The notes under the pieces: generated by a model
What the model saw: the letters and a program-made list of their open reading frames with translations, nothing else
What the model was told of the DNA's origin: nothing
Database searches by the model: none
Origin: a virus
Virus record (IMG/VR): IMGVR_UViG_3300023237_000098
Location: 1-20,063 of that record
Length of the DNA: 20,063 bases
Reading direction: 5' to 3' (one strand)
Position numbers and translations under genes: made by a program
In this document: positions 6,522 through 20,063 of the stretch, piece after piece
Layout of the letters: the number at the start of each line of letters is the position of its first letter
How positions within the stretch are numbered: position 1 is the first letter of the stretch

Positions 6522-6536
6522 TACATTGTACATATA

Positions 6537-6564
6537 GTTATAACATAAATAAATTATATGTCAA
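6537..6564 (-). promoter_or_regulatory. Sigma70-type promoter for the capsid gene
   Basis: On the minus strand, a perfect -35 (TTGACA, 6564-6559) and a near-perfect -10 (TATAAC, 6542-6537) are separated by 16 bases in the gap between scaffold and capsid genes. Few places in the window match the consensus this well. It would start a transcript about 215 bases before the capsid ATG. The same TATAACT -10 occurs twice in the tandem repeat at 17477-17505, which supports a shared late or middle promoter type. The -35 starts only 5 bases beyond the scaffold stop codon. Confidence 0.65.
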
Positions 6565-18416: not shown

Positions 18417-18612
18417 TCCATCCTTCTTTACGCATAGCCCACTCTACATGCTCTAAAGTAAATGGAGTACCGTAGTGGGCTTCCACTGCAGTCTTTACGT
18501 AGAATACATCACTATGGGGAATATGTAAGTTCTCAAGTTTTCCATCAATTACATGATTATAGAACTCTTCAAGAACATTGTCTGTATATAGTTTTACTGA
18601 TTTCTTTGCCAT
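18406..18612 (-). CDS. Small hypothetical protein, first gene of the leftward block
   Basis: A 68-residue protein from the ATG at 18612; a TTG two codons earlier (18618) is an alternative. It reads MAKKSVKLYTDNVLEEFYNH, then IPHSDVFYVKTAVEAHYGTP and ends MRKEGWTDS. The Phe/Tyr/His content and a C-terminal helix (TLEHVEWAMRKEG) suggest a small folded domain. The ribosome binding site is weak. It is the first gene after the control region, so an early or middle start of leftward transcription probably lies just upstream. I do not recognise the family with certainty. Confidence 0.7.
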   Translation of the reverse strand: MAKKSVKLYTDNVLEEFYNHVIDGKLENLHIPHSDVFYVKTAVEAHYGTPFTLEHVEWAMRKEGWTDS

Positions 18613-18696
18613 TGTCAATACTTATTTTATTATTAATACAAATATTCGTTCGCCTATCGGCAATTGTATGTCTACGGATTGGTACATGTAAGTGTA

Positions 18697-18783
18697 ATCA
18701 CTGTACGTGTATACTTATATGTATATATAGTTAAGTATAATTATAAGTAAGTATATATACATGTATATGTATCACTGTACGTG
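18697..18783. repeat. 13-base direct repeat flanking an AT-rich palindrome
   Basis: ATCACTGTACGTG occurs at 18697-18709 and again at 18771-18783. Between the copies lies an inverted repeat: ATGTATATATA at 18719-18729 pairs with TATATATACAT at 18752-18762, and the centre holds TATAATTATA, itself a perfect palindrome (18736-18745). Such an arrangement suits an origin, a protein-binding array or a cruciform. Confidence 0.75.
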
Positions 18784-18999
18784 ACCCTACCCAACACCCA
18801 ACATATATAGTTTTACACATTCTGTATTACATGTCAACCCCTAATCGTACAGTACAACACATTATGTGCTAGAAGTTGCATGTTTGTCGTATTATGTGAT
18901 CACAAATAACACCCTACGTATATGTAAACCACCCTATGTGTATAGTGGTTAACAGTATCATTTTCCTGATCTGTGTAGAAGTACATGTATATATACGTA

Positions 19000-19029
19000 C
19001 CCACCCCCTATGGCCCCTGCCCGGCCCCC
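19000..19029 (-). other. Potential G-quadruplex on the minus strand
   Basis: On the minus strand, five runs of three to five G (complementary to C runs at 19025-19029, 19020-19022, 19014-19017, 19004-19008 and 19000-19002) are separated by loops of 2, 2, 5 and 1 bases. This fits the standard four-run quadruplex pattern. CCACCC (19001-19006) could instead pair with GGGTGG (19041-19046). The tract is abrupt in an AT-rich surrounding. Confidence 0.6.
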
Positions 19030-19130
19030 TCTCAACGTGCGGGTGGTCATGTATAATGCCTTGCAGGGCTGCGGTGAGAACAGAATTGATGCCTCTATCC
19101 ACCATACCATACGAAGTATGAGCATAAACA

Positions 19131-19346
19131 GTGACTTACTTGTCTACGACAACTGTTATGCAATCAGTTGCCACTATATATAGTGATGTGAATCATGGGA
19201 TATACAAAAACCGTGAGTGTTGCAGTGTTGATGCATATAACTACCTAACAGAGTTAGTACTGTCACAGATTGTGAAAACATTTGGTCCAATGTTGGACTT
19301 AGACCCATATACAAAGTATATGATAAATATGTCACACCAATCGTGA
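19131..19346 (+). CDS. Weak small open frame in the control region
   Basis: A 71-codon frame from a GTG, or 62 codons from the ATG at 19158, on the strand of the rightward gene. The product has a protein-like middle (NRECCSVDAYNYLTELVLSQ and IVKTFGPMLDL) but matches nothing I know. No ribosome binding site precedes either start, and it lies in repeat-rich DNA. It may be a small early gene or chance. Confidence 0.25.
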   Translation: MTYLSTTTVMQSVATIYSDVNHGIYKNRECCSVDAYNYLTELVLSQIVKTFGPMLDLDPYTKYMINMSHQS

Positions 19347-19448
19347 TATGATCCGAACCGAAGCCTCGCATGAGTTTAGCGCACGAGTTTCGTAATTACT
19401 CTATAATTACTGCAACGGCGTGGGAAACGACCTGCACCGAGGATCACG
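19342..19448. other. Structured segment with 11-base-period direct repeats
   Basis: TAATTACT occurs twice with an 11-base period (19393-19400 and 19404-19411), next to a small hairpin ACGA-GTT-TCGT (19383-19393). The ends can pair in two exclusive ways: TGATCC (19349-19354) with GGATCA (19441-19446), or CCTCG (19363-19367) with CGAGG (19438-19442). Two sites one helical turn apart suit a regulator; the alternative pairings suit a leader RNA. A TATAAT at 19402-19407 lies inside the repeats. Confidence 0.35.
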
Positions 19449-19504
19449 CTATGAGAACCGACTTGACAAAACTTATACTATATTCTACTCGTTTATAAAG
19501 AGAA

Positions 19505-19534
19505 ATATATCTCACTTCTTTGTGAGAGATATAT
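19505..19534 (+). promoter_or_regulatory. Hairpin in the leader of the rightward gene
   Basis: ATATATCTC (19505-19513) pairs with GAGATATAT (19526-19534), or CTCAC with GTGAG in a shorter-loop form. It is AT-rich, has no U run after it, and ends 28 bases before the ribosome binding site. It may be a transcript-stabilising or operator element. Confidence 0.4.
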
Positions 19535-19576
19535 GTTCTCTCATATAAACAGAATATAGATAAAGGAAGTAAAACG

Positions 19577-20063
19577 ATGGAAAATTCAGCAACAACAACA
19601 AAACCAGCAATCAATACTCTCGAAGAGATTGGTGCTGTAATTGGTAAAGAATGGAAAGCCATCACCAAAGGTGATAAGGTTCGTTTCGATGCTTACACTA
19701 AATCCGATGGATTTGATATGAAGCTTGGAAAGCTTATGGTTGAACTCAAAGCCGAAGGCGGTGATCGTATCTCTAGCCAAAGGCTAAAGGATTGCAGCAT
19801 CAACTCTGTTGATAAACGCCGTAGAGCCGAGGCTATGTGGTTCGTTGAAAACGAAGTAGAGTGCCGTAAGTTCATTGCTGAAAGCAAGAAAGGCTTTACG
19901 TCTTTATCTGCTTTGCAGAAAGCGATTGCCATTGCATCTAAGCCAAAGGCTGAACCCGTAGAAACCACCGAAGGTGAGACAGAAGCTAAGTCCGATGTCG
20001 GACCTAACACCGAAGGTGAAACAATCGTAGTCACCAAGCAACTTGTGTTTGACCACTTGGTTG
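19577..20063 (+). CDS. Rightward gene of unknown function (3' end cut by window edge)
   Basis: An open frame of 162 codons that runs off the window; it begins MENSATTTKPAINTLEEIGA. A clear AAGGAAG lies 7 bases before the ATG. The first 110 residues look helical and charged (KEWKAITKGDKVRFDAYTKS, then KLGKLMVELKAEGG, then DKRRRAEAMWFVENEVECRK and a following SLSALQKAIAIA). A Glu/Thr/Pro-rich linker (about 120-150) follows, so another domain may lie beyond the edge. Its pattern recalls small helical DNA-binding or host-takeover proteins, but I do not recognise the family. It is the only gene on the plus strand and probably begins the early or replication block. Confidence 0.8.
   Translation, partial: MENSATTTKPAINTLEEIGAVIGKEWKAITKGDKVRFDAYTKSDGFDMKLGKLMVELKAEGGDRISSQRLKDCSINSVDKRRRAEAMWFVENEVECRKFIAESKKGFTSLSALQKAIAIASKPKAEPVETTEGETEAKSDVGPNTEGETIVVTKQLVFDHLV

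Follow-up and report, generated by a model that had tools for sequence, protein, structure and literature searches.

A probable composite control region at the divergent gene junction of an HMO-2011-type podovirus

Positions 18619 to 19576 of the IMG/VR virus record IMGVR_UViG_3300023237_000098 separate two gene blocks that are read away from each other, and the question raised by this locus is what almost 1 kb of DNA does at such a place. Within the window, that is, the whole stretch of 20,063 bases analysed here, the virion genes start at 18618 and run leftwards, those of a second block start at 19577 and run rightwards, so the interval indeed sits where transcription diverges, as an earlier note on this DNA had claimed. 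The TerL encoded in the window is 80.8–87.7% identical to that of Puniceispirillum phage HMO-2011 and of the Roseobacter phages CRP-1 and CRP-345, and the first protein on the early side of the junction has homologues in the same three phages; TerL and this junction gene together place the phage among the HMO-2011-type podoviruses, in subgroup I. The first early gene (19577–20063, plus strand) is cut by the window end and encodes 197 aa in the full-length relative, a contig of 55,985 bases, 99.7% identical over the region (loci L107–L109), from which the rest of the genome was taken. The 197-aa protein yields an all-helical model, for which no known fold or family was matched. At the left end of the window, an imperfect tandem repeat (459–761, 120-base unit, 2.5 copies) lies within a large leftward gene. 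Alignments were built from 33 and then 91 non-redundant relatives, with an overall divergence of up to ~47%; these relatives are mostly metagenome contigs that are not mutually independent, the alignment of the variable stretches is uncertain, and all the evidence is sequence-based.

The way in which these contigs end has been considered as well. Thirty-two of 80 relatives (L020–L099) stop in the first 1 kb beyond the left gene on its right-hand side and few do so on the virion side, with a contig-end hazard of 0.25–0.69 per kb in that 1 kb. A fixed genome end at the junction was rejected, as the ends are scattered across the region; they are probably assembly breaks at blocks common to co-occurring phages. 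One contig (IMGVR_UViG_3300046167_000032, 80,374 bp) has the control region twice (L173 and L191) and exceeds a single genome of this phage group, being likely a concatemer or a chimera.

The interval is non-coding. The longest internal open reading frames encode 55–71 aa and overlap one another, in agreement with the earlier reading that no convincing gene is present in this ~1 kb. Among 73 relatives, the longest stop-free run has a median of 79 codons on the plus strand and 69 on the minus strand, not far above the 65 of shuffled sequence, and the distances between conserved blocks fall into all three classes modulo 3. The HMO-2011 record lists gp72 and gp73, both small, as genes in the homologous stretch (L100, 5666–5929); they are likely to be over-annotations rather than genes. 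The window contains no tRNA and no Rfam family at the gathering score, and when the interval and five relatives were searched below the Rfam threshold, no match over motif H or hairpin I (see below) reached a cut-off; miRNA-type matches at 18700–18785 were far below threshold and were discarded as AT-repeat noise. Term searches of the main genome papers on HMO-2011-type phages met, in the passages that such terms reach, no mention of a promoter, an intergenic control element or a non-coding RNA.

What is conserved in the interval is a series of short near-invariant blocks amid variable sequence. These blocks are more conserved than the flanking coding sequence, first over 33 and then over 91 non-redundant relatives, which is far beyond chance. 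The alignment of the junction across relatives, a check proposed in the earlier note, shows that the repeats are kept while the sequence between them varies, and this pattern supports the regulator-type sites that the note had placed in a divergent control region. The most conserved pieces had been overlooked there, namely TAGTTTTACACA, GTGGTTAACA, CTGATCTGTGTA and CAACTGTTATnnnATCAGTTGCC, together with the structured stretch 19285–19563. Taken as a whole, the interval is, on balance, probably a composite divergent control region, made of a leftward promoter, P_L, and a structured leader of the early block. Its established parts, at the level of sequence, are P_L as a signal, the conserved blocks with their spacings, and the covarying helices.

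P_L, the putative promoter of the virion-gene block, lies on the minus strand at 18808–18837 and consists of TTGACA (18837–18832), 16 nt and TAAAACTA (18815–18808). Over ~85 relatives, the hexamers and their spacing are near-invariant and the spacer is variable. The −35 hexamer is TTGACA in nearly all relatives that reach P_L (TTGACT in two), and the −10 is off-consensus in most of them (TAAAAC/AAAACT). At the same position, the HMO-2011 clade has TTGACA, 17 nt and TATAAT, with an extended TGn before the −10. The alignment mean of the sigma70 score is the highest of the region at P_L, and by its TTGACA and TATAAT-like hexamers, 16–18 bp apart at a conserved spacing, P_L qualifies as a sigma70-type promoter sequence. 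The exact string TTGACA-16-TAAAACTA occurs only twice in the genome, the second occurrence being P_L2 (18589–18618, minus strand), which overlaps the beginning of the left gene, from its start codon into the next few codons; in 25 relatives, among them HMO-2011, CRP-1 and CRP-345, both of its boxes persist down to the choice of codons. A near copy, TTGACA-16-TATAACTA, was also seen upstream of the capsid gene, at 6564 (6535–6564).

Left of P_L, the 13-base direct repeat described earlier, ATCACTGTACGTG, is present exactly at 18697 and 18771 and nowhere else in the full-length relative. The AT-rich palindrome that it was said to flank is there too, imperfect and with an RNA fold z of −3.4 in the window; as a folded structure it fares poorly, with a median z of −1.5 across relatives. 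The elements conserved at this place across relatives are 11-bp quasi-palindromes, a set comprising CACTGTACGTG, CACTTATAGTG and CACTTTAAGTG, of which the 13-base repeat is a part: operator-like copies of CACTGTACGTG lie within its left (18699–18709) and right (18773–18783) occurrences. Such quasi-palindromes average 1.56 per 135 nt here versus 0.12 in the background, a 13-fold higher density for a motif that was picked after seeing the data. Of the 20-base degenerate tandem repeat, also claimed before, there is only a weak trace (Tandem Repeats Finder: period 6, 18708–18772, score 35), and it does not stand as a separate element.

On the other side of P_L, three elements form a rigid unit on the plus strand. 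Block C (18945–18977), GTGGTTAACA-n6-TTTTCCTGATCTGTGTA, is near-invariant, its halves being 20 or 21 bp apart in 66 relatives, and is a candidate activator site or rightward promoter region. Block D (18999–19022), CCACCCCCTATGGCCCCTGCCC, is conserved and C-rich; it belongs to the isolated C-rich tract that had been noticed before, which runs over 18999–19035 and is conserved around CCACCCCC..GGCCCCTGCCC. Element F (19148–19172), GACAACTGTTATGCAATCAGTTGCC, is an inverted repeat, CAACTG-N9-CAGTTG, with near-invariant arms and a variable centre. The distance from C to D is 64–66 bp in 67 of 72 relatives and that from C to F has a median of 203 bp (range 192–207; 80 relatives), the unit spanning from GTGGTTAAC to CAACTGTTAT(N3)ATCAGTTG, ~203 bp apart in those 80 relatives. 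The filler between D and F is variable in sequence, and the distances from P_L to C and from F to H vary freely. The consensus fold of the unit reaches −31.9, versus −10.3 ± 3.0 for shuffled columns, with much of this value coming from F and the adjacent hairpin hp2. A helix at 19038–19051 proposed by the consensus fold was rejected, G-T and A-C being about equally frequent in it. No conserved signal of a rightward sigma70 promoter was detected across relatives.

Rightwards from F, the interval is a succession of base-paired elements, all given here as plus-strand sequence. The 14-base perfect palindrome reported earlier is hp2, CACTATATATAGTG, at 19172–19185, which follows the F inverted repeat after one unpaired base. 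Of 67 distinct relatives, 54 pair it completely (5/5), and the fully paired arms come in 13 different sequences; G-T pairs amount to 0 of 150. A further hairpin seen by eye between F and pal14, hp3, was dropped, as the count gave no support for its anchoring. The palindrome pal14 (GTCC-N6-GGAC) has its first copy, GTCCAATGTTGGAC, at 19285–19298 and its second at 19990–20003, within the coding sequence of the first early gene, whose protein has S-D-V-G at this point of a variable linker; across relatives, the in-gene copy keeps S-N/D-V-G while the rest of the linker varies. In the full-length relative, the form GTCCRAYNYYGGAC has five copies, all within 2.3 kb (19285–21573), and across relatives pal14 is found in 340 distinct contexts, almost all of them 0 to +4 kb to the right of F. 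Its bases 5 and 10 co-vary (A-T 248, G-C 71, G-T 13, A-C 3), and the element looks like an operator of the early region or a repeated RNA hairpin. The next hairpin, hp4 (19306–19322), CATATAC-AAA-GTATATG, folds in the window and shows compensating changes in the alignment.

The two largest structures come last. Motif H, of ~95 nt (19354–19458), contains a GUUU/AAAC helix, a 3-bp helix and a stem of 7–8 bp, with conserved GAAACGRC and GAGGAT. A covariance model built from 29 sequences detects it in 69 sources, once in each. The paired cells make up 99.6%, and double changes are seen at 11 of 15 pairs. Its covariation is 0.466, versus 0.136 for shuffled and at most 0.114 for slid controls, and the H pairs are the top covarying columns when no structure is assumed, in an alignment that was itself fitted to the H model. 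Among the matches listed in viral contigs, the H core is at this junction except in four cases, which look like chance matches in coding sequence. Hairpin I, a near-continuous hairpin of ~90 nt (19473–19563), ends just 5' of the ribosome site that precedes the first early gene, and the distance between them is short in most relatives. Its z value is −6.1 in the window and below −3 in 61 of 70 relatives (median −5.4), despite their differing sequences, and its outer helix covaries. A few relatives (for example L026, L097–L099, L191 and L209) are without H or without I and keep the left-hand blocks. For the 91-row alignment, errors in the aligned rows limited what RNAalifold windows could show.

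These observations allow us to propose a model. P_L would drive the virion genes leftwards, with the operator-like quasi-palindromes downstream of it and P_L2 where the left gene begins. A separately regulated rightward start, which we infer without a consensus promoter, would lie in or near blocks C and D (18945–19022) and give rise to an early-block leader of ~0.55 kb carrying the base-paired chain F, hp2, pal14, hp4, H and hairpin I. Such a leader may influence, in cis, both transcription and the early message. Hairpin I could be a site of RNase III-type processing or a stabilizing hairpin, and in this way set how the first early gene is translated. It speaks against the model that no conserved rightward sigma70 promoter was found and that the helices are nearly devoid of G-U pairs, which is odd for RNA.

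In lambdoid phages, divergent control regions comprise PL and PR with their operators, and the present region resembles them in its divergent promoters, its clustered operator-like dyads and its proposed early leader before the first early gene. It differs from them in that the leftward promoter would serve virion genes, the interval holds no repressor gene and no consensus rightward promoter was found in it. The pair formed by F and hp2, one unpaired base apart, recalls the putRNA of the lambdoid phage HK022, with its two adjacent stem-loops in an early leader (PMC9378689), and could act on RNA polymerase in a like manner. HK022 putRNA is ~70 nt long, and a distance of ~270 nt separates putR from the start site upstream of it (PMC9378689); the likeness is that of two adjacent stem-loops, no sequence similarity is claimed, and the factor-independent antitermination in cis that marks HK022 put would apply here by analogy. 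As for pal14, the stoperators of cluster A mycobacteriophages are also short, repeated, regulator-type sites found along the genome beyond the main promoter, although they are asymmetric with one predominant orientation (PMC6550527), whereas pal14 is a palindrome and almost restricted to the early region.

The scarcity of G-U pairs deserves closer attention, since covariation is normally taken as proof of RNA and covarying helices almost without G-U are therefore a puzzle. Motif H has 0 G-U among ~908 paired cells and hairpin I 2.5%; the alphaproteobacterial SRP RNA has 14.7%, a figure counted on minimum-energy folds and only roughly comparable with that of H, which was counted on fixed pairs. 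The mismatches of hairpin I show no strand bias. Folding energy was also tried as a guide to the strand of the structured element, and the better folding of the minus strand proved to be an effect of composition, as shuffled sequence behaved equally. The helices are real, and covariation alone does not say that they are RNA: strict pairing in RNA helices, DNA hairpins, or arms copied via template switching would each account for the scarcity. It is a tentative and rather doubtful possibility that 19020–19577 is one structured non-coding element of ~0.55 kb, undescribed so far, restricted to this phage group and controlling the switch into early expression through Watson-Crick-only helices. If so, such helices would point to structure at the DNA level, alongside or instead of RNA.

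A replication origin, which the earlier note had raised as a possibility, would make the AT-rich repeats, the C-D-F unit and DNA hairpins the loading site of a phage DnaB-type helicase and primase. The strict spacing with variable filler does suggest a nucleoprotein architecture, an AT-rich palindrome and direct repeats are present, the lack of G-U fits DNA hairpins, and the minimum of the cumulative GC skew, computed on the full-length relative as the note had proposed, falls inside the region, at 19036. The skew maximum, however, is at 39147, which is the convergent gene junction and not the antipode (~47.1 kb), so the skew reports gene orientation. The direct repeat, examined as a possible iteron, is exact and also operator-like. 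The word TTTTACACA, unchanged in most relatives, does agree with the DnaA-box consensus TTWTNCACA; it is the complement of the P_L −10, and because in HMO-2011 this place holds a consensus −10 hexamer whose distance from TTGACA is that of a promoter, we read it as part of the promoter. It is the region's one match to TTWTNCACA. Neither the skew nor the DnaA-box evidence supports an origin, which we regard as unlikely.

The geometry of F invites comparison with site-specific recombination, the core site of lambda integrase being an inverted repeat of 6-9-6 geometry with a variable overlap. F, with its near-invariant arms and variable centre, has this same geometry, and it could be the core of an attP or resolution site bound by a tyrosine integrase, with C and D, at a fixed distance from F, as arm or bending-protein sites. 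A tyrosine integrase gene does lie 5 kb downstream, a separation that lambda does not share, and was present in 18 of the 32 contigs that were tested, the others being mostly fragments. An exact-pattern scan for the F site over 84,980 genomes gave 23 matches, none of them a host junction, and no credible attB, with the proviso that the genomes may not include the natural hosts and that the arms of attB may not be identical to those of F; judged by eye, the 23 are a coding stretch shared by SAR11, a mobile-element-like stretch shared by Bacilli, and scattered coding-type sequence. No prophage with this integrase was found in 385 alphaproteobacterial genomes, in a search that had no positive control. 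In CRP-3, moreover, the integration site is in tRNA-Met (PMC6918029), and the core is elsewhere, near the primase gene. We located in that genome (L111, ~3195, minus strand) a tRNA-like 3' end near the primase gene, not at the divergent junction, which fits the published tRNA-Met core. A recombination site would, besides, leave H, I and P_L unexplained, and is in our view quite improbable.

Least probable of all is that control is exerted by DNA hairpins with no functional leader RNA, in that inverted repeats would extrude from supercoiled DNA and be read by a polymerase or regulator as at the N4 early promoters, whose short, small-loop inverted repeats also lie upstream of early genes (PMC4496689): the Watson-Crick-only compensation in H and hp2 and the loops of 3–4 nt in several hairpins would suit it, but no N4-type virion RNA polymerase was found (the longest proteins of the full-length relative, of 1030–1255 aa, have no Pfam RNA polymerase match, and the N4 vRNAP has ~3,500 residues; PMC12633501), and the stem sequences here are not conserved, unlike those of N4 promoters, which are so in part (PMC4496689).

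The composite control region proposed here, with P_L on one side and a structured early leader on the other, is kept across the largest subgroup of the HMO-2011-type phages, which are among the dominant marine viruses. It supplies a consensus for a leftward promoter, a candidate early operator in pal14, and, in H, a new covarying motif without a database family. All three can be searched for in other genomes and, since CRP-1, CRP-345 and others can be grown in culture, could be put to the test in such phages.
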